Source: Thermoflexus sp.
Lineage (GTDB): Bacteria > Chloroflexota > Anaerolineae > Aggregatilineales > Aggregatilineaceae
Length of the DNA: 64,000 nt
Assembly: GCA_020724465.1 (NCBI GenBank)
Contig: DYGX01000020.1
Coordinates: forward strand, 1-64,000
Direction of reading: 5' to 3'
How positions within the stretch are numbered: the stretch's first letter is position 1; the number at the start of each line of letters is the position of its first letter. Of this stretch, positions 17,504-61,446 are shown piece by piece. The translations under genes were made by a program, and so were the position numbers. The notes under the pieces were generated by a model. It had not been told where the DNA came from, did no database searches, and saw nothing but the letters and a program-made list of their open reading frames with translations.

Positions 17504-17688
17504 GAGCGAAAAGCAGCGAAAAGCAGCTAAAAACAGCTAAAAGCAGCTAAAAACAGCGAAGAACAGCGAAAAGCAGTAAGAAACAGCTAGAAACAGTAAA
17601 GCGCCTTCCGCGGCTCTCCGCTGTCTTTAACTGCCCTTTGCTGCCCTTGCTGTCTTTTGCTGCTCTTTGCTGTCTTCGCTACGGTATC
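17504..17688. repeat. Period-10 repeats between two SGNH genes
   Basis: From 17504 to about 17600 the plus strand reads AGCGAAA AGCAGCTAAAAACAGC-type units upstream of paralogue A. From about 17625 to 17688 it reads the opposite orientation (GCTGCCCTTGCTGTCTTTTG type) and runs into the stop codon of the gene at 17679. The two blocks are roughly complementary and could form a long imperfect hairpin. Confidence 0.65.
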
Positions 17689-24663: not shown

Positions 24664-24806
24664 GCGATAGCTAAAGACAGCTAAAAGCAGCTAGAGGCAG
24701 CTAGAGGCAGCTAAGAGCAGCTAAAAGCACTTGCTGCTCTTGGCTGCTCTTCGCTGCTCTTGGCTGTTCTTTGCTGCTTTTTGCTGCTCTTTGCTGCTCT
24801 CCGCTA
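24664..24806. repeat. Period-10 repeats in inverted arrangement
   Basis: About 24664-24730 has AAAGACAGCTAAAAGCAGCT-type units; 24730-24806 has TGCTGCTCTTGGCTGCTC-type units that end in the stop codon region of the minus-strand gene at 24804. The two halves are approximately complementary. Confidence 0.65.
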
Positions 24807-28325: not shown

Positions 28326-28522
28326 GAAGCGAAAGACAGCGAAAGACAGCTAAAAGCAGCTAAAGACAGCTAAAAGCAGCTAAAGACAGCTAAAAGCAGC
28401 TAAAGACAGCTAAAAGCAGCGGAAAGGCGGCAAAAAGCACTCGCTGCTCTTAGCTGCTCTTTGCTGCTCTTGGCTGCTCTTTGCTGCTCTTTGCTGCTCT
28501 TGGCTGTTCGTCGCTGCTCTTA
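28323..28522. repeat. Large inverted block of period-10 repeats between convergent genes
   Basis: From 28326 to about 28425 the sequence is a tandem array of AGCAGCTAAA/GACAGCTAAA units at strict 10-bp spacing. From 28438 to 28522 it is an array of GCTGCTCTTT/GCTGCTCTTA units. The first array begins at the stop codon of paralogue D; the second ends at the stop codon of the ABC ATPase. The arrays are near-complementary and form a long imperfect hairpin between two convergent genes. Confidence 0.75.
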
Positions 28523-37054: not shown

Positions 37055-37150
37055 CTGCCTTTAGCTGTTCCTTGCTGTTCTTAGCTGTTCTTAGCTGTTC
37101 TTAGCTGTTCTTAGCTGTTCTTAGCTGCTCTTTGCTACTTCTCGCCGCTG
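37055..37150 (-). repeat. Period-10 tandem repeat at the 3' end of parB
   Basis: The plus strand has five perfect TTAGCTGTTC units in a row (about 37078-37128) flanked by variants. The array reaches the parB stop codon. It is the most regular of the period-10 arrays. Confidence 0.75.
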
Positions 37151-38383
37151 CTAGCTGTCCCGCGCCGCCTTCTGCTCGATCTCGCGCTCGACCAGATCGA
37201 GCAGGCGGCGCAGCACGGCGACCTGCTGGCGGATGGCTTCCGGCTTCTGGCGCTTGAGCCACTGATCCGCCACCAGCTCCAGATTGGCCTGCGAGAACTG
37301 GCTGGCCAGCGACGGCCAGCGGTTCGCCACGCGCTCCGACGGCGTCTCGCCGAAGTCCTCGCTGCGCGCGGGCAGATCGCCGCGCAGCACCCGCTCGACA
37401 TTGCCCGACTCGACCAGCTTCTCGACCTTCTCGGCGGTCAGGTCCTTCTCGACCATCAGGCGCACCAGTTGGAGCTGGAGCGTCTCGTCGTGCAGCTTGA
37501 GGACCGGGCGCAGACGTTTTTCTTCCAGGCGGTAGCGGTCGGCCAGGTCCCAGACGGCGTCCGGCAGGCGCAGCAGCGCCTGGATGCGGCTGAACTGGGC
37601 GCGTTCGATCCCGCCCAGGGCGGCGCGCAGGTTGGCGCCCTCGCCGCGCGGCACGCGGTAGTCGAGCGCCTGGCGGTACCAGTCGTTGGGCACGGGGCCG
37701 TCGTGCGGGGGATGGATCCCGTACAGGTCGAGCAGCAGGGTGGCAAGCTGGCGGGCGAGCGCCATGGCAGACAGCCCCTCGCGGCTGGTGTTCTCCGCCG
37801 CCTGGCGCCAGGGGCTGGCCTGCTCAACCACGATGCACTGAATCTGGTCGTAGCCATCGCCCAGCCAGGTGTTGAGCCAGTGATGCGCCCAGTAGCGCCG
37901 CTCGCCGGTCTCGATGCGGTAATAGCTGCCGCCGTCCACCTCGCAGACCGTGATCGGGCTGACCTGCCCGCCGTGCCGGATGGTGGCGGCGGTGGCGACG
38001 ATGGCGCGCAGGGCGTCTTCTTCGGGGCCGGGCTGGCCGGGCGGATCGACGGCGATGTCCTCGCCCCGGTCGTCGGGCTTGCGGTCGAGCAGCGCGCGCC
38101 AGTCCGGACGCGGGCGGCCCAGGCGCGAGGCTTCCTCGGCGACCAGCGCTTCCCATCGTTCGAGCGCCTGCCGGGCGTTGATCAGCCCGGCCAGAAAGTC
38201 CTGCCGGATGACCTCAGGCAGCACCCGGCGCGGCTGGGCCGGGTCTGGACGGATGCGATCCAGCACAATGCTGATGACCTTCGCGCCGCTGCCTTGAAGG
38301 GACGGAGTGAGGTCATCCAGCCCGCCCAGGGCGCCCATCTCTTCCAGCAGGGCGCGCGTGCCCCGCGACTGTCGTTTGGCCAT
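37151..38383 (-). CDS. parB: ParB-like partition protein
   Basis: The 410-residue protein has ParB N-terminal features: DRIRPDPAQPRRVLPEVI (box I-like) and later YYRIETGERRYWAHHW (GERR box). A helical DNA-binding region follows (AALGGIERAQFSRIQALLRLPDAVWDLADRY) and a C-terminal dimerisation-like helix. A long Asp/Pro insert separates the boxes, unlike chromosomal ParB. It is directly downstream of parA, separated by 1 nt. It is most like plasmid or chromid ParB/RepB proteins. Confidence 0.85.
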   Translation of the reverse strand: MAKRQSRGTRALLEEMGALGGLDDLTPSLQGSGAKVISIVLDRIRPDPAQPRRVLPEVIRQDFLAGLINARQALERWEALVAEEASRLGRPRPDWRALLDRKPDDRGEDIAVDPPGQPGPEEDALRAIVATAATIRHGGQVSPITVCEVDGGSYYRIETGERRYWAHHWLNTWLGDGYDQIQCIVVEQASPWRQAAENTSREGLSAMALARQLATLLLDLYGIHPPHDGPVPNDWYRQALDYRVPRGEGANLRAALGGIERAQFSRIQALLRLPDAVWDLADRYRLEEKRLRPVLKLHDETLQLQLVRLMVEKDLTAEKVEKLVESGNVERVLRGDLPARSEDFGETPSERVANRWPSLASQFSQANLELVADQWLKRQKPEAIRQQVAVLRRLLDLVEREIEQKAARDS

Positions 38384-38384
38384 A

Positions 38385-39209
38385 CTAGCTCGCTCCCGTC
38401 GGCTTGTAGATACGTTCGAGCAGTTCCTTGACGAAGGCCATATAGGCGCGCGCGGCGCTCGACCGGTCGTCGTAGAGGAAGATCGACTCGCACGCGTCGT
38501 GCGCGTAGGACACCGCCACGTTGGCGGGGATCGGCGTGCGGAACAGGCGCGGCCCGTAAAAGGCGTGGCGTCCGTAGAGGTCCAGATTCTCGCGCTCCAG
38601 GGTGATGCGCTGATCGTACTTGACCGGCAGGATCCCCGTCAGGCGCAGCGCCGTCTCCCAGGTCTGCTGCACCTCGCTGATCTTCTCGACGATGGCCTGC
38701 AGGCCGACCGTCTCCAAAAAGCGCATCTCGACGGGGATCACAATGTCGGTCGCGGCCACCATCGCCATCGTCGTCAGGCGCGAGAACGAGGGCATGGTGT
38801 CGATCACCACCCAGTCGTACTGGTCGGCGACGGCGCGCAGGGCGTGGCGCAGGCGCACCGCAAAGCCGTGATCTTCCGCCAGCCGCATGTTGACCCCGTC
38901 CAGCGTCGGCGAGCCGGGCAGCACGTGCAGATCTTCGTCCCACAGCGAGGGCACGATCAGGCGCTGCAAGACGGCCCCGGCCTGCGCCGGTTTGGAAAGC
39001 AGCACCTCGCCCAGGCTCTCGGAGCGATCCCAATCGCGGCGCCCGGTGGTCAGCATGGTGGCGTGCGCCTGCGAGTCGGTGTCGATCAGCAGTACGCGGT
39101 GCGGCATCTGATTGTGCCGCAGCAGGATCACCAGCCCGTGCGCCAGGCTGACGGCGGTGGTGGTCTTGCCCACGCCGCCCTTGTTATTCGTCAGGCAGAT
39201 GCTGCGCAT
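38385..39209 (-). CDS. parA: ParA-family partition ATPase
   Basis: The 274-residue ATPase has the deviant Walker A KGGVGKTTTAVSLAHGL at its N-terminus, Walker A' VLLIDTDSQAHAT and Walker B WVVIDTMPS. There is no N-terminal HTH, so it is a type Ib-like or chromosomal-like ParA. A CTGAGGAGCCG site precedes the ATG. With parB it should segregate the DNA molecule on which it resides. Confidence 0.93.
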   Translation of the reverse strand: MRSICLTNNKGGVGKTTTAVSLAHGLVILLRHNQMPHRVLLIDTDSQAHATMLTTGRRDWDRSESLGEVLLSKPAQAGAVLQRLIVPSLWDEDLHVLPGSPTLDGVNMRLAEDHGFAVRLRHALRAVADQYDWVVIDTMPSFSRLTTMAMVAATDIVIPVEMRFLETVGLQAIVEKISEVQQTWETALRLTGILPVKYDQRITLERENLDLYGRHAFYGPRLFRTPIPANVAVSYAHDACESIFLYDDRSSAARAYMAFVKELLERIYKPTGAS

Positions 39210-39355: not shown

Positions 39356-39904
39356 TTAGCAGTTCACTGTCTGCAAACCGGCTACAAACCAGGCCGCCGA
39401 CAGCTCGATCAGCCGGTGGACGTGAATCGAGCGTCGCATCTGCAAGCCGAAGCGCATGCTGACCTCGACCAGGGCTTCCCACACCGGACGGTCGAAATAC
39501 AGCGTGGTGCGCTGCTGGTCGCCGGTCTGCAGCGGCAGGTCGCGCAGCGGGGTGCGCACCGGCCGGTCGACCAGCTCGCGCAGGCCCAGCACGCCGGTCA
39601 GCGACACGGCCCCGGCGGGCAGGCGCACGTCGTCGCCCAGCAGCGCGTGCAGATCCGTGATCATCAGCGTCGCCGCCTCGTTGTAGAGGTCCGAGACGCT
39701 GACCAGATGGCCGCTTTCTTCGCTGCGCGCCTGGGCCAGGGCTTTCATCTGCGCGTGCAGGTAGCTGGCGAAATGACCGGTCGTCGCCACGCGATTCTTG
39801 GGCGGACGCCCCGGCCGTCCGGTCGAGACCGGGCGGCGCTCGCGCACCGTCTGGACCAGGCGGCGGAAACTCCCGTCGTGCTCCGTCAAGCCCTCTACTC
39901 CCAT
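39356..39904 (-). CDS. Small possible DNA-binding protein of the replication cassette
   Basis: I do not recognise this 182-residue protein by family. It has an AT-hook-like GRPGRPPKNR (about residues 29-38) and two short helical sections that could be ribbon-helix-helix-like (VSVSDLYNEAATLMITDLHALL and RRSIHVHRLIELSAAWFVAGL). Its place between parA and the AAA ATPase, all on one strand, suggests a role in partition or copy control. The start is uncertain: ATG 39904 is used, but a TTG at 39973 overlaps the upstream stop codon. Confidence 0.55.
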   Translation of the reverse strand: MGVEGLTEHDGSFRRLVQTVRERRPVSTGRPGRPPKNRVATTGHFASYLHAQMKALAQARSEESGHLVSVSDLYNEAATLMITDLHALLGDDVRLPAGAVSLTGVLGLRELVDRPVRTPLRDLPLQTGDQQRTTLYFDRPVWEALVEVSMRFGLQMRRSIHVHRLIELSAAWFVAGLQTVNC

Positions 39905-39965
39905 CAGCCTGTCGGCCCGCGCCCGGCGCCGGTGCGGCAGCACACCCCGGCGGGGGCGCGGCGCG

Positions 39966-40859
39966 CTATTCAATCTCGTCGCGCAGGCGGGCGGCGTCCA
40001 GCGCGCTGGCGGTCACCCGCTCCAGCCCAAACTCGACGATGTACCACAGCGCCGCCCCGGCCAGCTTGATCGCCTTGCGCGGGTAGCCCTTCGACAGATC
40101 ATACAACAGGTCGATCGCGTCCGGGTTGAACAGCGGCAGCTTGCAGCCGGCGCGGTTCAGGCGGAAGTTGATCAGCTCGGCGGTCTCGGCGGGGGTGAAC
40201 GGCTCCAGCGTCGAGCGCGCCGCCACGCGGTCGTTGAGATCCGGCGCGTTGTGCAGCGACAGCCGCAAGTCTTCCTTGCCGATCAGCACCACCTGAATGG
40301 GCACCAGCCCGCCCGCGTTGAAGTTGAACAGCTCGCGAATGAGGTCAAGCTGGCGGCGGACCAGCGTTTGCGCCTCGTCGATCATCACGATGCAGTTCTG
40401 CCCGGCGGCGAAGATGTCCAGCACCATCGCGCGCAGGTCTTCCATCAGGCCGTCGTTGGTGCGCTTGCTGGTCTTGCCGCCCAGCTCTTGAATGATGCGC
40501 CGCAGCAGCTCGCGCGTGCCGGGATGCGGCGGATCCGGGATGTAGGCCACGACCGACGGCTCGCGCACGTCCCCGGCGGTGTAGGAATTGTAGAGATAGC
40601 GGGCGAGCATCGTCTTGCCGGTGCCGTAATCGCCGATGATGACGCTGAGGCCCTGGCGCTGGTCGATGGCAAAGGTGGTCTTCGCCAGCGTGCGGGCGGT
40701 TACGCCGGCCACGTAGAGGTAGTCGGGATTGGGCGACATGGAAAAGGGATAGGTGTACATCCCAAACATGCGCTGCAGGTCTTCCAGCCGGCGCTGAGTC
40801 ACCGACGGGTCCGGCGCATACGACGGGGTGACGATTCTGGGCTTCAGTTTCACGGTCAT
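39966..40859 (-). CDS. AAA ATPase of the ExeA/TniB type
   Basis: The 297-residue ATPase has the N-terminal MYTYPFSMSPNPDYLYV segment typical of ExeA/TniB proteins, Walker A GDYGTGKTM, Walker B CIVMIDEAQTL, the sensor VVLIGKEDL and an arginine-finger region. TniB and ExeA relatives serve transposition, secretion or DNA loading. Here it stands divergent from a replication initiator and next to ParAB, so a loader or partition role is plausible. The site TGGAGG is 8 nt before ATG 40859. Confidence 0.85.
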   Translation of the reverse strand: MTVKLKPRIVTPSYAPDPSVTQRRLEDLQRMFGMYTYPFSMSPNPDYLYVAGVTARTLAKTTFAIDQRQGLSVIIGDYGTGKTMLARYLYNSYTAGDVREPSVVAYIPDPPHPGTRELLRRIIQELGGKTSKRTNDGLMEDLRAMVLDIFAAGQNCIVMIDEAQTLVRRQLDLIRELFNFNAGGLVPIQVVLIGKEDLRLSLHNAPDLNDRVAARSTLEPFTPAETAELINFRLNRAGCKLPLFNPDAIDLLYDLSKGYPRKAIKLAGAALWYIVEFGLERVTASALDAARLRDEIE

Positions 40860-40964
40860 GCGGGCGCCTCCAGGGTTGCCCCGACTATAGCACAAGTCGC
40901 CGGCGGGGCACTACCGCGCGCGATCCTGGCACATGCGGGGGCCGATCCGGCCACCAGACGGGCG

Positions 40965-41310
40965 AAAATGTTCATTTTTATCATCGCATTGTGCAAATTA
41001 GCCGCTAGCGGTGAACGCTAACCACTAATTTTGTGCAAAAGCGGCCTATTTTTGCACCGCGCCGATTGACTTCGTTGAAAAACAGTGATACCATCGCAAT
41101 TGTATTGCGCGTGACAGGCCCGGATGAGAACACCTGGTGCCGAGACGGTTCACCAAGTTACTCATCAGTATACACCCTGCTGCGGATTTTGCACCAATTT
41201 TTCGCAGCCGGTGCCAGATATGCCAACTTTAACACACTGATCTGCGCTTTGTTTGAGGACGCGCCCAGCGGTTGCAGCCGTGAGGACGAAAGCGTGCAAC
41301 CGCCAGAAAA
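40965..41310. other. AT-rich candidate origin or control region with repeated TTGTGCAAA elements
   Basis: This AT-rich island lies between the divergent AAA ATPase and initiator genes. It contains TTGTGCAAA at 40989 and 41031 (42 bp apart), the inverse TTTGCACC at 41051 and 41188, and a perfect 9-bp inverted repeat GCGGTTGCA / TGCAACCGC (41268-41276 and 41295-41303). No consensus DnaA box was seen. It may hold an origin, promoters for both divergent genes, or both. No gene is supported between 40860 and 41509. Confidence 0.5.
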
Positions 41311-41509
41311 GAAGAGAGGCCATCGAAGGGGAACCCTACGACAGCCGCTCGATCCGTAGCATTTTGTCGGCTTCTCGCTGTTTTTCGCCTGATCAGCACA
41401 GTGCCAGCAAAATGCAAACCCACAGCTTCATTCTAGCTTGGATCGATCCCCCTGTCAACGCGCCCCCTCCGGCCCGAGCTTCGCGGCGCTCCACCCTTGA
41501 GGAGCGACC

Positions 41510-43678
41510 ATGTCCGCTACAAGCCCGGCTACAACGCCTCCGGTCTTGGCGCTGACATCGGAATACTCAACCCCCTACGCGGCCCTGGTTCGTGACGATG
41601 TGGTGATGGGCGTCCCGCGCTATTTCCTGGAGCGCTGGCTGCCTGTGCTCGGCCCCGCGCCCGCGGCGCTGGTCAACACGCTGCGCCAGCTCGACTACCG
41701 CTGCCAGGGCGAGGCCATCACCATCAGCGGCGCGGCGCTGGCCCGCGAAGCCAGCATGTCCCGCCGCCACCTCTACACCTGCCTGGAGCACCCCTGGATC
41801 GGCGCGTTCGTGCGCGCCATCTCCGGCCAGAAAGCGCGCGACGCCGAGGGCAAGATCTGGCAGCAGGCTAACCGCTACGCCGTGCGCATGGACGACCCGC
41901 TCGCCCCCGGCGACGCCGCGCGCCTGCTGGCGCTGCTGCCCACCCTGGCCGATAACCCGCTCCAGGCCGCCGCCCGCGCGATTGGCCTGGAACCGCGCGC
42001 CCTGTGGGCCGAGCAGCCCGGCGCCGATCACCCGGCCTTCGCCCCGCCCGCGGCGATTACGGCCCGCGACGTGCTGCTGCGCGCCTTCCCTGGCTGGAAC
42101 CCGCAAGACGCCGACTCTCAGACCGCCTTCAACCAGCTCGCCGAGGCGCTGCACCGCCATATCACGCTGGGCCGCGACGACGGCCGCACCAGCAAGGTGA
42201 TCGTCCCGCAGTATTTCCGGCGGCGCTGGTGGTCCCGCCTGGGGCACGACCTGGCCTGGGCCTACCTGTGGCTGCGTGGCAACGTCTACGACCGGCCGGA
42301 CGAAGGCATCCAGCGCGATACCTGCTGGGTGCCCGCGCTCGACACGCTGCTGACCTTGCTGGGCCGCCCGCGCGAGTGGTGGCGGCGCAACGTCGAGCAG
42401 GCCAGGCCGCACTCCGACGGCTGGGCGTTGAGCGACTTCTTCACCCAGATCGAGGCGCGCAAGGGGCGCGACCCGGCTCACCCGCAGTGGGTGGCGCGCT
42501 GCTTCCGCGTGGCGCTGGAGATCCCGATCGCGCCGGAAGACCGCGCCCGCTACGCCGAGCTGCTGCGCGACTGGCCGGCGGATGGCATCCCGCCGGGGTC
42601 CGCCACATTGAAACACACCGGTTCCGAGGGGGTCCGCCACATTGAGACACACCGGCTCGATCCCGGTCCGCCACAAACGCACACACCGGATCTCGCCACG
42701 TCCGCCACATCCGAACACACCGGATCCGGGGGGGTCCGCCACATTGAAACACAGGGGTCCGCCACGCCCGCGCACAGAGAATCGGAGTCCAACTCTCCAG
42801 CCCCCAATTCACCCCAAGCCACTGAAGCCAGCAGCAAGCCTCAGCCCGCGCCGCCGCCGGACATGCCTGCTGCTGCGGTCCAGGCAGAGCACAAAGAAAT
42901 TCTGCGCGATTGGTTGCGGCGGACCTATCGCGTCGCCCCCGCGACCCCACTCTATGCCGCGGCGCCAGCACGCGTCTGGCTGGAACAGAGCTGGTCCGAG
43001 CCGGTCCGACCGCACACCCCCGCCTGGACGCTGGTCCAGCGCGGGACGCTGCACCCGCGTGACCTGGTGGCGCTGATCCTGGCGGTGAGCGTCGACCGCA
43101 CGGTTCAGGAACCGCCGCGCTACCTGAGCTGGCTGGCGCAGCGGTGGAGCGCGGATCCCGCGCAGCCGCCCGTCGAGCGGTGGGACGAGTGGCGCCGGCT
43201 GGCGGCGATGCCGCTCTCCGGCTGGCTGGACGAAGGTCGCGGGGCGTGGCTGACGCTGGCGCCCAGGGATAACCGGGCGCTGCCCTTTGGGCTGGATGAC
43301 CTGGCGCCGGACGATCCCGCGCCCCCTGCCGTCCCGCCCGCCAAGCCGCGCGCGGAAGCGGCTCCCGCGCCGGACCCGCCTTCGTCCGGGCTGGACCAGC
43401 GTCCGGGCGGCGGCTTGCTGACCGTGGCCGATATGTGGCGGGCGACGCTGGGGCAGCTCAGCCTGCAGCTCAACCAGGTGACGTACCAGAGCTGGGTCGA
43501 GGGGACGCGGGCCGTCGCCTTCGACGGCGGCGTGCTGACCGTGCAGGCGCGCAGCAGCGCCGCGCGCGACTGGCTGGAGACGCGTCTTGGCCCGGTGATC
43601 GAGCGCGTGCTGTCCGGCATGGCCGGGCAGCCGGTCCGCGTGCGCTACACGCGCCAGGGCGATCCGCCCGGCGGCTGA
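41510..43678 (+). CDS. Replication initiator-like protein with C-terminal DnaA domain I
   Basis: The 722-residue protein has an N-terminal region with a winged-helix pattern (ALVNTLRQLDYRCQGEAITI, then SGAALAREASMSRRHLYTCL), as in plasmid initiators. A middle section is Trp/Arg-rich (YFRRRWWSRLGHDLAWAYLW). A disordered linker (about residues 360-460) is encoded by the iterons. A second helical region follows. The last 85 residues (LWRATLGQLSLQLNQVTYQSWVEGTRAVAF...) match DnaA domain I, which contacts the replicative helicase. I infer an initiator that binds its own gene and recruits helicase. GGAG lies 7 nt before the ATG. Confidence 0.75.
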   Translation: MSATSPATTPPVLALTSEYSTPYAALVRDDVVMGVPRYFLERWLPVLGPAPAALVNTLRQLDYRCQGEAITISGAALAREASMSRRHLYTCLEHPWIGAFVRAISGQKARDAEGKIWQQANRYAVRMDDPLAPGDAARLLALLPTLADNPLQAAARAIGLEPRALWAEQPGADHPAFAPPAAITARDVLLRAFPGWNPQDADSQTAFNQLAEALHRHITLGRDDGRTSKVIVPQYFRRRWWSRLGHDLAWAYLWLRGNVYDRPDEGIQRDTCWVPALDTLLTLLGRPREWWRRNVEQARPHSDGWALSDFFTQIEARKGRDPAHPQWVARCFRVALEIPIAPEDRARYAELLRDWPADGIPPGSATLKHTGSEGVRHIETHRLDPGPPQTHTPDLATSATSEHTGSGGVRHIETQGSATPAHRESESNSPAPNSPQATEASSKPQPAPPPDMPAAAVQAEHKEILRDWLRRTYRVAPATPLYAAAPARVWLEQSWSEPVRPHTPAWTLVQRGTLHPRDLVALILAVSVDRTVQEPPRYLSWLAQRWSADPAQPPVERWDEWRRLAAMPLSGWLDEGRGAWLTLAPRDNRALPFGLDDLAPDDPAPPAVPPAKPRAEAAPAPDPPSSGLDQRPGGGLLTVADMWRATLGQLSLQLNQVTYQSWVEGTRAVAFDGGVLTVQARSSAARDWLETRLGPVIERVLSGMAGQPVRVRYTRQGDPPGG
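42596..42766 (+). repeat. Iteron-like array within the initiator gene
   Basis: The 9-mer GTCCGCCAC starts at 42598, 42632, 42666, 42700 (all nine bases) and 42734, five times at exactly 34-bp spacing, with a sixth copy at 42757. Copies extend to GTCCGCCACATTGAAACAC-type 19-mers and end in CACCGG. The 34-bp step rotates the reading frame, so the same DNA is translated as GSATLKHTG, GVRHIETH and PPQTHTPD. The DNA, not the peptide, is conserved. Confidence 0.85.
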
Positions 43679-49891: not shown

Positions 49892-51916
49892 ATGCTTTCT
49901 GCCTTCGAAAAAGCCCTCTTCTTTTTGCTGGTGATCGTGACGCTGGGCCTGGCGCAGCAGACCTTCCGCTGGATGATCGGCGCGATCCGGCGCGGCGAAG
50001 GGCGGCTGCCCCTGGACGATCTGCCCCGGCGCGCCTTCCGCGCGGTCGAGGTGGCGATCACGCAGCGCACCGTCTTGCGCGCCCGCCCCGCCACCAGCGT
50101 GATGCACCTGTTTATCGTCTGGGGCTTCCTCTATTACGTCCTGATCAACCTGGGTGACCTGATCGAAGGCTTCTTCGACGTGCACTTCCTCGGCGCCGGA
50201 CCGGTCGGCGGCGTCTACCGCTTCATCGGCGACGTGCTGAGCGTGCTGACGCTGGCGGGGATGATCTACTTCCTGGCGCGGCGCTTCCTGGCCCGCGCGC
50301 CGGCGCTGACCTTCCGCGACAACGTGCGCCTGCACGAGCGCGCCGCGCCGGGCATCCGCCTCGATTCGCTGATCGTCGGGACGTTCATCCTGGTGCACGT
50401 CGGCTCGCGCTTTCTGGGCCGCTCGTTCTGGATCGCGGAGCGCGCCGGGGATCCCTGGCAGCCGGCGGCGGGGCTGGTGGCGCGGCTGTGGGACGGCCTG
50501 AGCTTCAGCACGCTCAACGCCTGGATGCACATCACCTGGTGGCTGGCGCTGGGCACGATCCTGGCTTTCATCCCGTACTTCCCCTACAGCAAGCACATCC
50601 ATCTGCTGATGGGGCCGCTCAACTACTTCTCACGCCCGGAGCGGCGGGCACTCGGCGCGCTGGACCCGATCGACTTCGAGGATGAGGAGCGCGAGCAGTT
50701 CGGCGCGGCGCGGCTGGAGCATTTGCAGCAGACGCACCTGTTCGACGCGTTCGCCTGCATCATGTGCAACCGCTGCCAGGATGTCTGCCCGGCTTATGTT
50801 ACAGGCAAGGAGCTGTCGCCCGCCGCGCTGGAAGTCAACAAGCGCTACGAACTGCGCGGGATGATGCCCGCCTTCGCCTCTGGCGCCGAGTCCCCGCGCC
50901 CGCTGATCGAGTTCGCCATCACGCCCTCGGCGGTGTGGGCGTGCACGGCATGCGGCGCCTGCGTGGAGATCTGCCCGGTCGGCAACGAGCCGATGTTCGA
51001 TATTCTCGACATCCGCCGCGACCAGGTGCTGATGGAAAGCGCGTTCCCCGCCGAGCTACAGGGTGCCTTCCGCGGGATGGAGAACAGCGGCAACCCCTGG
51101 CAGATGTCCGACAGCCGCATGGCGTGGGCCGAGGGGCTGGACGTGCCCACCGTGGACGAGGTGGACGACTTCGAGATTTTGTACTGGGTCGGCTGCGCGG
51201 CCAGCCTGGAGCCGCGTGCCCAGCAGACGGCGCGGGCGCTGGTGCAGGTTTTGCGGGCGGCGGGGGTCCGGTTCGCTGTGCTGGGCGAGCGCGAGCGCTG
51301 CACCGGCGATTCGGCGCGGCGCGCGGGCAACGAGTACCTGTTCTACGAGCTGGCGCGCGCCAACATCGAGACGCTCAACGCGGTCAAACCGCCGCGCATC
51401 CTGGTGACGTGCCCGCACTGCCTGCACACGCTCGGCAAGGAATACCCGCAGTACGGCGGCCAGTACCAGGTGATCCACCACACCGAATACCTGACCGAGC
51501 TGATCGCCGGCGGGCGGCTGGCGCTGTCGCCCGGCAAAACCGGCGAGCGCGTCACCTTCCACGACCCGTGCTACCTGGGCCGCCACAACGGGATCTACGA
51601 GCCGCCGCGCACGCTGATCGAGCAGATGACCGGCGCGCCTGTTCAGGAGATGGCCCGGACGCGGAACAACTCGTTCTGCTGCGGGGCAGGGGGCGCGCAG
51701 TTCTGGAAGGAAGAGGAGCACGGCGCGGCGCGGGTGAACCTCACGCGCTATGCCGAGGCACAGGCCACCGGCGCGCAGACGCTGGCGGTCGGCTGCCCGT
51801 TCTGCATGCGGATGTTCACCGACGCGCAGGGCGAGCGCGCGGGGCAGGGCGGCCCGGCGATCAAGGACGTCGTGGAGCTGATCGCGGAGCGGGTGGCGGG
51901 CAGTAGCAGTAGCTAA
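49892..51916 (+). CDS. Membrane-linked Fe-S oxidoreductase, heterodisulfide reductase-like
   Basis: The 674-residue protein has an N-terminal cytochrome-b-like membrane domain (about residues 1-250, five or so helices) like nitrate reductase gamma or HmeC/DsrM proteins. Two 4Fe-4S sites follow (CIMCNRCQDVCP at about 288 and CTACGACVEICP at about 350), and a C-terminal CCG domain with CCGAGGAQFW (about 599). Such proteins couple quinol and thiol/disulfide or lactate-type electron transfer. The partner is not in the window. The stop codon lies in a repeat (GSSSS tail). Confidence 0.9.
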   Translation: MLSAFEKALFFLLVIVTLGLAQQTFRWMIGAIRRGEGRLPLDDLPRRAFRAVEVAITQRTVLRARPATSVMHLFIVWGFLYYVLINLGDLIEGFFDVHFLGAGPVGGVYRFIGDVLSVLTLAGMIYFLARRFLARAPALTFRDNVRLHERAAPGIRLDSLIVGTFILVHVGSRFLGRSFWIAERAGDPWQPAAGLVARLWDGLSFSTLNAWMHITWWLALGTILAFIPYFPYSKHIHLLMGPLNYFSRPERRALGALDPIDFEDEEREQFGAARLEHLQQTHLFDAFACIMCNRCQDVCPAYVTGKELSPAALEVNKRYELRGMMPAFASGAESPRPLIEFAITPSAVWACTACGACVEICPVGNEPMFDILDIRRDQVLMESAFPAELQGAFRGMENSGNPWQMSDSRMAWAEGLDVPTVDEVDDFEILYWVGCAASLEPRAQQTARALVQVLRAAGVRFAVLGERERCTGDSARRAGNEYLFYELARANIETLNAVKPPRILVTCPHCLHTLGKEYPQYGGQYQVIHHTEYLTELIAGGRLALSPGKTGERVTFHDPCYLGRHNGIYEPPRTLIEQMTGAPVQEMARTRNNSFCCGAGGAQFWKEEEHGAARVNLTRYAEAQATGAQTLAVGCPFCMRMFTDAQGERAGQGGPAIKDVVELIAERVAGSSSS

Positions 51917-51968
51917 CAGCAGCCAAGAGCAGCAAACGGCGGCCAAGAGCAGCGAAAAGCAGCGGTGA
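51904..51968 (+). repeat. Period-10 repeat at the 3' end of the Fe-S oxidoreductase gene
   Basis: The sequence AGTAGCAGTAGCTAACAGCA and following GCCAAGAGCAGCAAAC units start within the last codons and include the stop codon TAA. Confidence 0.65.
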
Positions 51969-52132: not shown

Positions 52133-52190
52133 GTTGCGCTTGCTCTTGGCTGCTTCTCCGCTGCCTTGAGCTGCTTCTCGTTGCCCTTAG
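52133..52190 (-). repeat. Period-10 repeat at the 3' end of the VWA stalk protein gene
   Basis: Units such as TTGGCTGCTTCTCCGCTGCC and TTGAGCTGCTTCTCG on the plus strand end at the stop codon of the minus-strand VWA gene. Confidence 0.65.
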
Positions 52191-54772
52191 CTCCTCGCGC
52201 CGCGCCCGGCCACACGCGACAGCACCAGCACCAGCAGCGCCAGCAGGATCGCCACCCCGCCGCACAGCAGCGCGATCTGCGTCGTGCCCAGGCCGCCCTC
52301 GTCTGCGCCCACCTCAACGATCTCCGGGATGGGGGTCGCGGTGGCGGTGGGACGCGGCGTGCTGGTCGGGCCGGGGGTGTTGGTCGGCGTCAGCGTCGGC
52401 GTGTCGGTCGGTGCCGGGGTATCGGTGGGCGCCGGCGTCGGCGTGTCGCTGGGCGCGGGGGTATCGGTCGGCGCCGGGGTATCCGTCACGGTCGGCGAGG
52501 GCGTGATCGTTGGCGACGGCGTGCGGGTCGGCGTCGCGGTCCAGCTCTCGGCGGTCGAGGTCATGATCTGCGCCACCTGGAGCGCGGTTGCGGTCGCGTC
52601 GGGTGTGTCGCTGGGCACCGGCGTGTCCGTCCAGCTCTCGGCCGTCTGCGTCATGGCAATCGCCGCTGTCGAGGTCAGGTCCGGCGTCGGGCTGGGCGTC
52701 ACGGTGTCGGTGGGTGTGGGCGACGGCGTGTCGGTCGGCGTCACGGTATTCGTCGGCGTGTGGGTGGGCAGCGGCGTATCGGTTGCTGTTGGCGTCAGGC
52801 TCGGCGTCGGCGTGTCGGTGGGTTCCGGCGACGGTGTGTCCGTCGGCTCCGGCGACGGTGTGTCAGTTGGCACCGGCGTATTGGTTGGCGCGGGCGTCGG
52901 CGTGTCGGTTGGCTCCGGCGACGCGGTGTCCGTCGGCTCCGGCGTGTCGGTAGGGCGCGGCGTATTGGTTGGCGCGGGCGTGTCAGTAGGACGCGGCGTA
53001 TTGGTCGGCGCCGGGGTGCGCGTGGGTGCCGGGGTATTGGTCGGCGCGGGCGTGTCGGTCCAGCTCTCGGCGGTCGCCGTTTGCGCCAGCGCCAGCGCGA
53101 TCACGGTGCCGGTCACGTCCGGCGTATCGGTCGGCAGCGGCGTGGGTGTATTGGTCGGCGCGGGCGTGTCGGTCGCCGTGGGCGTGAAGGTCGGCGTGTC
53201 GGTCGGCGTCGGCGTGGGCGTGAAGGTCGGCGTGTTGGTCGGCGTATTGGTCGGTGTCGGCGTATTGGTGGGCGTGGGCGTGTTGGTCGGCGTGGGGGTG
53301 GGCGTCACGAACAACTGCGGATCGAGCACGAACCCGCGCGTGAACGTCGCCGTCTCGCCGCCGGACTCCACCTCGACATCCAGCCTGTGGTCGCCCGGAC
53401 CGAACGGCAGCAGGTCGATGGTCGCTTCGAAGGGCGGCCCGGTCAGCTCGGCGGCCGTCTGCCCGTCGATGGCGATCGTGACGCGGTCGAGGGGCTGCTG
53501 TGTCTGTTCGGGCGTGATCGCGATCGAGAGCGTGCCGTCGCTGAGGAACGCGCCTTCGTCCAGCCCTTCGATGCGGATCACCGGCGGCAGCGCGGCCACC
53601 TCAATCGCGGCGTCGAGCGAGCGCTCGCCGCCCAACGCATCCTGCGCGTGCAGGGTCAGGGTGTGCTCGCCGGGCGTCAGGGTGTAGGGATCGATCGCGA
53701 TCTCGGCGGTGACGGTGTTATCTGCCGGGGGTGCGGCGATCAGGTCCACCGGCGCGCCGTCAATCGCGGCGCTGATCGCGCCCAGGCCGCGCGGCGCGGT
53801 CACCCGCGCGGTGATCGTCACCGGCTCGGCAAGCGGCGCGTCGGGCACGCCTTCAAGCTCAAGCTGCGGGTAGAGATCGGGTGTGTTGAAGCGCTGGCTG
53901 TCGCTGGCGCTGTTGGCGGCCACCTCGACCGTGTGCGCCGAGCCGTCCGGCTCTAGATCGGTGTCGAGCGTGATGACGTACTGCGTGCGCAGGTAGGCCG
54001 CCAGGAAGCCGTATTCCTCGGCCAGCCGGTCCGCCGTGGGCGAGAGCAGCACTTCGCCGCGCGTCTCGCGCGCCAGGGGGGTCAGGTAGGCAGCCTCGAC
54101 GCCGAAGCCCAGCCCGAAGGTGTAGAACGGGATGTTGTTGGCGGCGGCAATCTCGATAGCTTCACGCGGGCCGGCGGTGCTGAGGTTCCCGTACTCGTTG
54201 CCGTCGGTCAGCAGCACGACATAGCGGCGCGGGGTCTGCGTTTGCAGCGCAAGCTGCACCGCCTCGTAGGCGGCCTGGTAGAGGGCAGTTCTGCCGCCGG
54301 CCTGCAGGCCATCGATCGCGGCGCGCACCGCGTCGAGGTCCGTGGTGAAGTCCTGCACGACGCGCACCGTCGAGTCGAAATCGATCAACGCGACCTGGTC
54401 GCCGGGCTTGAGCCGGTCGAGGAAGGCGTGCGCGGCTTCCTGGGCGGCCCGCAGCGGCGGACCCATCATGCTCTCGCTGGAGTCGATCACCAGCACGACG
54501 GAGATCGGCAGGTCGTCCTTGGTGATGTTCTCGATGGCGGTGATGGTCGCGGGCTGCCCGTCGAGGGTGATCGTGAAGTCGTCAGCGGTGAGATCGGGCA
54601 CCGGCACCTGGAAGGGGTCGAAGACGTTGACGAACAGCGTGACTTCGGGCAGGTCGCTGGTGATGACCTCGACCACTTCAACGCGGGCGACGCCGTTATC
54701 CTGGGCCGAGGCGGCGCCGCCGAGAGCGGCAATCAGTACAAGGAACGTGATGACGAGCGACAAGATGCGCAT
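52187..54772 (-). CDS. Surface VWA protein with Thr/Pro stalk and C-terminal anchor
   Basis: The 861-residue protein has a signal peptide ([24 protein letters not shown]) and a VWA domain (about residues 88-270) with the metal site [11 protein letters not shown]. Ig-like or cadherin-like beta domains follow (about 290-480), then a Thr/Pro/Asp-rich stalk (about 480-815, repeats such as [12 protein letters not shown] and [10 protein letters not shown]), and a C-terminal membrane helix ([20 protein letters not shown]) with a short basic tail. It resembles a cell-surface adhesion or sensing protein. GGGGAG lies about 5 nt upstream of ATG 54772. Confidence 0.85.
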
Positions 54773-55123
54773 ACGACTCCCCCCGGAGAAGGGCTGGCTC
54801 AAGCAACCGGTGACACGTGATTGTCGATCATGTGTCCGCCAGTCTGTGATGGTTCTTATTGTACTCTAGTCTGCGAATTTTGCTGGCAGCAGTTGACGAA
54901 TGGCGCCCCCGCTGTATGGTTTCGCGCCGCTGCGGCGTCAAGTTCGACCCGCGGGGTGGAGGGACAGCCGAAACGCAGCGGGTTTTTGCGCAGACGTTGT
55001 TTTTCCCATTACAATTCGCGTACTGGCGATCGCTGCGGTGAAGCGTATGCTCCACGCGCAGGACATCGTGCCAGCCTGCACCCGGTTTTTTTTAACAGAT
55101 AGCTTTATTTCGGAGGACACCCC
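54773..55123. other. Intergenic region between divergent VWA and ugpB genes
   Basis: The region has an AT-rich patch near 54850-54885 and a candidate promoter for ugpB at 54986-55015. A second candidate (TTGACG at 54893, TATGGT at 54915, 16-bp gap) also reads toward ugpB. A T-run (GGTTTTTTTTAACAG) lies at about 55084-55098. No gene is supported. Confidence 0.5.
54986..55015 (+). promoter_or_regulatory. Candidate sigma-70 promoter of the ugp operon
   Basis: TTGCGC (54986-54991) and TACAAT (55010-55015) are spaced by 18 bp, giving a leader of about 100 nt before ugpB. The -35 is imperfect. Confidence 0.4.
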
Positions 55124-58457: not shown

Positions 58458-59309
58458 ATGTCCAACACGAACACTCAGCCTCTCTCCGACCAGATTCACG
58501 GCTTTCTGCTCGATATGGACGGCACGTTCTACCTCGGCGGGCGCCTGCTGCCCGGCGCGGCGGCCTTTCTGGCCTACGCGCGCGAGGTGGGTCTGCCGCT
58601 GCTCTTTCTGACCAACAACTCCTCGCGCGACCGCCGCGCCTATGCCGCCAAGCTGGCCGAGATGGGCGTCACCGTCTCGCCGGACGAGATCTTCACATCG
58701 GGCGAGGCGACGGCTCGCTATCTGAGCGCCCGCTGGCCGCAAGGGACCCCCGTCGCCGTGTTCGGCACGCCGTATCTGGAGCAGACCTTCCGCGATTTCG
58801 GCTTCACGCTGACCTTCGACGACCCGGCGCTGGTGGTGCTCGGCTACGACAAAACGATCACCTACCCGAAGCTGGTCCGCCTGTGCGACCTGGTGCGCGC
58901 CGGGCTGCCGTACATCGCCACCCATCCGGACCTCAACTGCCCGGTCGAGGGCGGCTACGAGCCGGATATCGGCGCGATCATGGCCTTTGTCGAAGCGTCC
59001 ACCGGGCGGCGGGCGGATGTGATCGTCGGCAAGCCGCACGCGCCGATGGTCGAGATGGCGGCGCAAAAGCTGGGGCTGCCGGTCGAGGCGCTGTGCATGG
59101 TCGGCGACCGGCTGTACACCGATATCGCCATGGGCCAGACCGCGCCGCTGCATACCGCGCTTGTGCTCAGCGGCGAGACCCGCCCCGACGACCTGGCGCG
59201 CAGCGCCTTCCAGCCCGATTATGTTTTCGATGACCTGATGGGGCTGCTCGAAGCGGTGAAGGCAGCCGGGAACAGCGAAGAACAGCCAGGACCAGCAAAG
59301 AACAGCTAA
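58458..59309 (+). CDS. HAD-IIA phosphatase (NagD-like)
   Basis: The 283-residue protein has the HAD nucleophile motif LLDMDGT (Asp19 and Asp21), motif II LFLTNNSSRDR, a C2B cap and the motif IV MVGDRLYTDIAMG. NagD/AUM-type HADs hydrolyse phosphates such as glycerol-phosphate, nucleotides or p-nitrophenyl phosphate. Its position after a UgpB/UgpA/UgpE set suggests it could process the imported phospho-compound. The last residues (AAGNSEEQPGPAKNS) are translated period-10 repeat DNA. Confidence 0.88.
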   Translation: MSNTNTQPLSDQIHGFLLDMDGTFYLGGRLLPGAAAFLAYAREVGLPLLFLTNNSSRDRRAYAAKLAEMGVTVSPDEIFTSGEATARYLSARWPQGTPVAVFGTPYLEQTFRDFGFTLTFDDPALVVLGYDKTITYPKLVRLCDLVRAGLPYIATHPDLNCPVEGGYEPDIGAIMAFVEASTGRRADVIVGKPHAPMVEMAAQKLGLPVEALCMVGDRLYTDIAMGQTAPLHTALVLSGETRPDDLARSAFQPDYVFDDLMGLLEAVKAAGNSEEQPGPAKNS

Positions 59310-59424: not shown

Positions 59425-59493
59425 ACTGCTTCTAGCTGTTCCTGGCTGCCTTGAGCTGCCTTTCGCTGCTTCTGGCTGCTTTTCGCTGCCCCT
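59425..59493 (+). repeat. Period-10 repeat upstream of the Vps62-like gene
   Basis: CTGCTTCTAGCTGTTCCTGG and TTGAGCTGCCTTTCGCTGCT units are adjacent to the start codon of the next gene, again pyrimidine-rich. Confidence 0.6.
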
Positions 59494-59503
59494 GGAGCGT
59501 CCC

Positions 59504-61380: not shown

Positions 61381-61446
61381 CGCTGTTCTTCGCTGCCCTT
61401 TGCTGTTCTTCGCTGTTTTTTGCTGCTCTTTGCTGCTCTTCGCTAG
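61381..61446 (-). repeat. Period-10 repeat between Vps62-like and ZIP genes
   Basis: CTGTTCTTCGCTGCCCTTTG and TTGCTGCTCTTCGCTAG units end at the stop codon of the minus-strand ZIP gene. Confidence 0.65.

Follow-up and report, generated by a model that had tools for sequence, protein, structure and literature searches.

A candidate plasmid-type replication origin within the linker of the gene for its own initiator in a Thermoflexus genome

In phage lambda, an AT-rich stretch lies beside the iterons of the origin, and the P protein brings DnaB. The lambda origin sits in the middle of the O gene, as stated in PMC3985674. For pSK41, PMC5703833 places the Rep boxes centrally in rep and reports that the linker encoded there is dispensable, that the N-terminal winged helix binds the repeats and that the C-terminal domain contacts DnaG. 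Origins inside initiator genes are thus already known, and the case described here is a further form. It lies in a stretch of 64,000 nucleotides from Thermoflexus sp. (GenBank assembly GCA_020724465.1, contig DYGX01000020.1, positions 1 to 64,000; hereafter the window), in which a forward-strand open reading frame (ORF; 41510..43678) is probably a replication initiator gene. Its 722-aa product, Rep, comprises predicted tandem winged helices, a linker and a DnaA domain I, and the linker DNA carries an array of six iterons. We consider it probable, at about 0.84, that this array and the AT-rich stretch that follows it form a plasmid-type origin inside the linker of the origin's own initiator gene.

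In this reading Rep would work like the RepA_N protein of pSK41 or lambda O, and it matches neither family by sequence. Shared with pSK41, as judged from sequence, are the central position of the repeats in rep, a linker peptide that appears unconstrained and a presumed origin role. Unlike pSK41 RepA_N, Rep has no RepA_N Pfam match, is predicted to contain two winged helices, ends in DnaA domain I rather than a DnaD-like DnaG-binding domain, has ParA, ParB-like and AAA neighbours and belongs to an Anaerolineae host. The likeness to lambda O, anticipated in a preliminary description of this DNA, was borne out as iterons inside the initiator gene followed directly by an AT-rich stretch of modest contrast. 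In contrast to lambda, there is no phage O match, we propose that a fused DnaA domain I takes the place of P, partition genes are present, and the units are six, of ~25 bp, mostly at 34-bp steps. The tandem winged-helix fold predicted for Rep is shared by RctB and by the Rep_3 initiators, such as RepE of F and pi of R6K, with RepE54 as the best match, whereas Rep has no Rep_3 Pfam match, and pSK639, the one Rep_3 plasmid compared, has its repeats upstream of rep. Among the literature matches listed for Chloroflexota plasmid initiators, chromids, intragenic origins and DnaA-domain fusions, none describes an initiator of this kind.

The array spans 42597-42776 and consists of six units with start-to-start distances of 34, 34, 34, 34 and 23 bp. 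The word GTCCGCCAC starts at positions 42598, 42632, 42666, 42700, 42734 and 42757, so that all six positions and the 34-bp steps given in the preliminary description were exact; the conserved unit extends beyond its nine bases and is ~25 bp long (GGTCYGCCACAN6CACACCGG). Iterons 1 to 5 (42597..42621, 42631..42655, 42665..42689, 42699..42723 and 42733..42757, all on the plus strand) were delimited by this pattern and by the layout across genomes. Iteron 6 (42756..42776, plus strand), delimited by layout and a profile rescan, follows iteron 5 by 23 bp, has a diverged right half and differs from the pattern at four positions. Allowing up to three mismatches, the pattern matched five times in the 64-kb window, each time within the array, against a mean of 0.07 matches over 100 dinucleotide shuffles, none of which reached five. 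A DNA search located the array once in the 4.42-Mb, 56-contig draft genome. Our first generic 16-mer scan recovered just four of the six units, a count also reached in one of the ten codon shuffles; we therefore rely on the consensus pattern, the profile rescan and a codon-position test across genomes. The codon phases of the iterons are 1, 2, 0, 1, 2 and 1, which confirms that the same repeats are translated in all three frames; the resulting peptides are GSATLKHTG, GVRHIETHR and GPPQTHTPD. At the start codon (41512-41521), the left end of the iteron recurs with one mismatch (GTCCGCTACA), and in genome G002 it is exact.

The N-terminal 360 aa of Rep are present in 8 of the 18 genomes of the window's genome family, its own included; the gene was not found in the other 10, which are drafts of 75-99% completeness. 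We read Rep genes from the seven other genomes, of which G012 holds two copies and G002 and G008 have genes cut by contig ends. Eight of the nine family arrays, from seven genomes including the window's, have six units, steps of 34, 34, 34, 34 and 23 bp and identical codon phases, while the proteins that carry them are 55-74% identical to the window Rep (51% for the second G012 copy). The ninth, in G008, encodes a Rep of 46% identity with a longer linker and four degenerate units at steps of 34, 33 and 23 bp. A codon alignment of eight genes gave, for codon positions 1, 2 and 3 in turn, mean pairwise identities of.935,.934 and.882 in the array core,.434,.460 and.414 in the spacers and.744,.802 and.508 in the N-terminal domains. 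Core positions were defined from the unit consensus, which makes their overall conservation partly circular; this circularity does not touch the near-equality of the three codon positions. Because core sites are about equally conserved at all three codon positions, the iterons are selected as a DNA word and the linker peptide hardly at all, as the preliminary description had argued from the three frames. Within 42597-42757, units 1 and 4 and units 2 and 5 are alike in several genomes (e.g. G014 and the second copy in G012, G012b); exchange between units 102 bp apart would leave the reading frame intact.

The assignment of the gene to replication initiation, proposed in the preliminary description, is supported by both ends of the protein. 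Near the C-terminus, codons 641-701 (43430..43612, plus strand) match the DnaA N-terminal domain, or domain I (PF11638, E 4e-9). This domain is C-terminal in the window Rep and N-terminal in other relatives. At the N-terminus, an AlphaFold2 model of residues 1-360 (pLDDT 86, pTM 0.83, from 10 sequences) predicts two winged helices in residues 26-340 (41585..42529, plus strand). The best structural match of the model was RepE54 (7rva_C; Z 8.5, 189 aligned residues, rmsd 4.3) in VIA-align, a re-ranking of Foldseek candidates, of which we considered the 50 best rows. Rows 1-46 and row 50 of these matches (47 of 50) are, by their titles or known identity, initiators of plasmid or secondary-chromosome replication, ~41 of them one protein, RepE54; the others include pi (Z 7.0), entries at Z 6.3-6.5 that we take to be RepA_N N-domains, and RctB (Z 6.5 and 5.1). 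Chains of RNA polymerase III scored 5.8 and 5.6. A Z score of 8 is weak by itself; the argument for an initiator fold is that four kinds of iteron-binding initiator head the list. Neither RepA_N (PF06970) nor Rep_3 (PF01051) was among the Pfam matches of the window Rep (E<=1) or of 13 aligned relatives (E<=0.1), a profile search of PDB sequences at E<=1 returned no initiator, and for phage O there was no Pfam match (E<=1) and in PHROG no match whatever (E<=0.1).

Putative recognition helices were picked from model helices 85-92 and 288-296. They contain SRRHLY and REWWRRNVE in all nine family members, which have one iteron type. The first differs in nine relatives with other iterons, and the second in five of those nine, the aligned stretch covering this helix in those five only. 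Judged from the alignment, this co-occurrence of helix and iteron is a correlation along the tree and not proof of recognition.

Directly past the array lies a candidate DNA unwinding element (42774..42837, plus strand). Among all 60-bp windows of the gene, those starting at 42774 and 42778 are the richest in A+T, with 43%, the mean for the gene being 28%. The corresponding maximum begins no more than 20 bp from the array end in 19 of the 24 genes compared (6 of 9 close relatives of the window, 13 of 15 of the rest), and in the remaining five (G016, G012a, G008, L108 and L129) it starts 35-103 bp past the array. Array ends were set by hand for this comparison, and the profile rescan moved some by one unit. 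Two words recur in the AT-rich stretches, AAGCAC in 7 and ACTCTT in 8 of 25 genes, against control means of 0.07 and 0.00; these counts are exploratory and hint at a common partner. Further downstream, CTGCTGCTG occurs at 42867-42875, ~90 bp past the array, and 16 of 26 homologues have CTGCTG no more than 170 bp from the end of the array. A hairpin CAGCAG...CTGCTG past the AT-rich stretch was rejected: in 1 of 26 genes only (L113) did the stability of the stretch exceed that of synonymous-codon shuffles by over 2 SD.

The preliminary description had called for a search of the array in homologues. Profile matches to Rep occur in 29 of 396 genomes of the class Anaerolineae and in 31 of 400 genomes of the phylum, the window's counted in both. 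At least three repeat copies within a 350-bp span are present in 20 of 31 homologue ORFs, and the repeats themselves differ between relatives: GTGACAAAWTTGAAC in L102, GCAAAATGAGAC in L105, AGTGGCGCGAATGACA in L117, GAACCGCCAAAAGGCG in L120 and GGACGCAAATGGGAG in L167 and L193-L196. As controls we took the 207 non-Rep ORFs of 350 aa or more in the fetched neighbourhoods; among the 21 Rep ORFs compared with them are that of the window and L162, a truncated second reading of a G126 gene. At least three copies were found in 19 of 21 Rep ORFs versus 20 of 207 controls, and at least four in 14 of 21 versus 4 of 207, one of these controls being a run of N. Further f34 and f58 ORFs had at least five copies in seven of seven examined, most arrays being close copies of one another. 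The profile rescan covered 27 genes, 20 with at least three seed copies; it left out L104, on the same contig as L102, and L115, L121, L123 and L132 (236-314 aa), and some positions reported in L107, L110, L112, L118 and L130 lie far from the array and are probably chance matches. Spacings between repeats cluster at a period of ~10.7 bp: the vector length R is 0.67, where the null averages 0.17 (p 5e-5, the lowest value that the test can give). They fall at 21-24, 30-34, 39-48, 54 and 63-75, and the ranges 25-29 and 35-38 are empty. This test used 50 distinct spacings per group and a null of uniform integers from 20 to 66, and steps above 75 bp were dropped. Linker repeats are firm in Anaerolineae and unproven beyond it, because just 3 of 16 ORFs from other classes have plausible ones.

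We propose the following mechanism. The N-terminal tandem winged helices would bind the six helically spaced iterons, and the resulting Rep-iteron nucleoprotein complex would melt the adjacent AT-rich stretch. DnaA domain I participates in helicase loading, as described in PMC4980987. The C-terminal domain of Rep would, as at oriC, recruit the replicative helicase or its loader. ParA and ParB, the small protein and the AAA ATPase encoded nearby would provide the module with its partition and accessory functions. The linker peptide is little more than a spacer, because there is hardly any codon-position signal in the array core or the spacers, which would leave its DNA free to become an origin. 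Binding of the array by Rep, activity in the cell and the replicon type are what we infer.

Several observations weigh against this proposal. There is no clear GC-skew switch at the locus, and the AT contrast of the window Rep is modest, the next best 60-bp window reaching 42%. A Foldseek search with the model of residues 1-360 returned nothing at E <= 0.001, and by the note of VIA-align itself a Z near 8 may mean only a common arrangement. Eleven of the 31 homologue ORFs have two copies only (L106, L109, L115, L121, L123-L126, L128, L131 and L132); they lie outside the window's genome family, several are short or distant, four being 236-314 aa long, and L109 has three copies at a looser setting. 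In other classes, 5 of 16 ORFs reach three copies, and three of these look like linker repeats. The Rep of the Leptolinea sp. HRD-7 plasmid AP024711.1, considered again below, has 295 aa and no second winged helix, linker or array. The array recurs in the genome family, and arrays of other repeats occur in many relatives of the class; homologues without repeats, which the preliminary description had named as evidence to the contrary if they remain functional, exist as well: the 11 ORFs at the stringency of that scan, most of the other-class ORFs and the plasmid copy. Finally, 32 of the 50 spacings are multiples of three, which indicates that the reading frame also constrains the wider family; the clade of the window, with its steps of 34 and 23 bp, ignores this preference.

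This last excess, counted on de-duplicated spacings, and the open frame in all copies read are what would be expected if the repeats served the peptide, i.e. if a repetitive linker were selected as protein. We regard this as very improbable, and for the window's genome family it is contradicted, as the same DNA is translated there in three different frames and conservation at third codon positions comes close to that at the other two. The array could instead be a partition centromere to which the small protein (39356-39973) or ParB binds while ParA moves the replicon. Direct-repeat centromeres are known, parA, parB and the small-protein gene adjoin rep in family copies as far as contigs reach, and at default settings no repeats besides the array were found in two intergenic stretches of the window module and two of relatives. 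A centromere does not account for an array placed inside the initiator gene and followed in most cases by the gene's AT maximum, in the family and in many class relatives, nor for an iteron motif that goes with the putative recognition helices of Rep, and we consider it unlikely as the sole function; a dual role as origin and centromere is possible.

An array that only regulates the gene, as an intragenic operator or as handcuffing sites for copy-number control, or that is a relic in a chromosomal island, would take no part in initiation. The neighbours that the locus shares with other genomes and the absence of a detected gene from the 10 family drafts noted above would fit such a role. We judge it about as unlikely as a centromere, since a relic would decay, whereas the array, the AT-rich stretch and, where contigs reach, the protein domains are intact at 51-74% protein identity. 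Slightly less doubtful, and still improbable, is that the window's genome family has a chromid (secondary chromosome) whose origin is this array. Here parAB and a plasmid-type initiator stand beside fumarase C and a DtxR-type regulator, and neighbours are common to several genera; against this, the family is represented by draft contigs only, and Rep shares a molecule or contig with dnaA in G126 and G320, which are relatives in other families and thus indirect evidence. The preliminary description had left the choice between a chromid and a plasmid. The plasmid type is favoured by the par genes and by the circular plasmid on which a related cassette lies, and the draft contig and the dnaA-linked relatives speak against the chromid. 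Two other candidates were rejected. A chromosomal oriC does not fit a gene that was missed in 10 of the 18 genomes of the family, with dnaA on different contigs and no clear switch in the skew; for a phage origin, a search of viral contigs with the closest-family alignment gave no relative, and phage matches were confined to the DnaA_N range.

The genes next to the proposed origin point the same way as the plasmid-type reading. Divergent from rep, on the minus strand, lie genes for an AAA ATPase (39966..40895; AAA_22 or TniB-like by Pfam, 84-94% identical in six other family genomes), a small protein without a Pfam match that is ribbon-helix-helix-like by eye only (39356..39973), ParA (38385..39209; AAA_31, E 1.5e-35) and a ParB-like protein (37151..38383; HTH_ParB, E 2.6e-7, with ParB_N and TIGR00180 below the cut-off). 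These four accompany the family Rep copies as far as contigs reach, the G015 contig ending before the par genes, and a ParA match adjoins Rep in 14 of 20 class loci. In the intergenic region we noted a candidate Rep promoter, TTGACT-17-TACCAT (41065..41094, plus strand; judged by eye from the alignment), and, also by eye, a candidate operator with the imperfect inverted repeat TGCAAAA...TTTTGCA (41031..41059), both similar in relatives; the repeat search at the settings used lists no repeat at the latter. Past the candidate promoter, 41095-41509 is an apparent Rep leader of ~400 nt, parts of which are similar in G002 and G013, with room for a copy-number control RNA.

The Rep contig measures 64.8 kb within the 56-contig draft, and the window locus lies near fumarase C and a DtxR-type regulator. 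Neighbours common to some family loci are a cupin, a DtxR-type regulator, fumarase and a response regulator, and the module therefore looks long resident, though patchy. G126, a single contig of 4.40 Mb, has three Rep genes on the dnaA molecule, two of them ~1.04 Mb and 71 kb from dnaA; its skew, in 20 samples of 20 kb, is noisy, with no clear origin. One of the G126 genes stands beside two serine-recombinase-like genes, and a DnaB-like ORF lies close downstream of Rep in G126 (L149, 9760-11067), all named by eye. In G320, Rep and dnaA are ~60 kb apart on one contig. G159 and G311, of different genera, hold one Rep gene each (L193 and L194) that is identical over 1494 bases, which suggests that the gene was transferred recently or that one of the two genomes was binned wrongly. 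The closed circular 212-kb plasmid of Leptolinea encodes an AAA ATPase 31% identical to that of the window, a Rep with DnaA_N and the first winged helix (hhalign E 7e-16) and, ~6 kb from this cassette, a gene annotated Soj; the small protein between AAA and Rep shows no significant similarity to the window's. Because of this related cassette, the sharing between G159 and G311 and the recombinase-like neighbours, the module plausibly derives from a plasmid or an integrative element.

Elsewhere in the window, dispersed arrays of 10-bp units (e.g. AGCTAAAGAC and TTGCTGCTCT), several in facing pairs, occupy 17505-17676, 24669-24800, 28328-28521, 37061-37136, 51911-51963, 59263-59306, 59445-59495 and 61381-61444, and a minus-strand gene (52187-54802) contains many short internal repeats. 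The window genome also has two strong DnaA ATPase genes (G000:C23:24507-24983 and C42:2272-2754; E 2e-55 and 1e-64), which represent either contamination (4.3%) or a real second copy.

A broader reading, which we put forward as speculative, is that Anaerolineae hold an undescribed family of DnaA-domain-I initiators with exchangeable linker origins, of which the window's genome family keeps one vertically as a second origin and partition locus, maybe serving chromosome replication or segregation. The idea of a resident locus is tied to an apparent shortage of ordinary ParB in the genome family: Pfam ParB_N had no match in 10 of the 11 family genomes searched and two weak matches in G003, the module's own ParB-like protein falling below the cut-off, while G126 and G320 have one match each. 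The locus is a natural experiment in which one DNA stretch would be both coding sequence and origin, read in three frames with only the DNA conserved. Relatives with differently worded repeats make the old question about origins inside genes testable. Across the wider family, iterons of many sequences and spacings go with a single protein architecture, so that the specificity between initiator and iteron may be readable by comparison, and the fusion to DnaA domain I poses the question whether this domain alone suffices to call the helicase. The Rep loci are also candidate replicons for Chloroflexota vectors.
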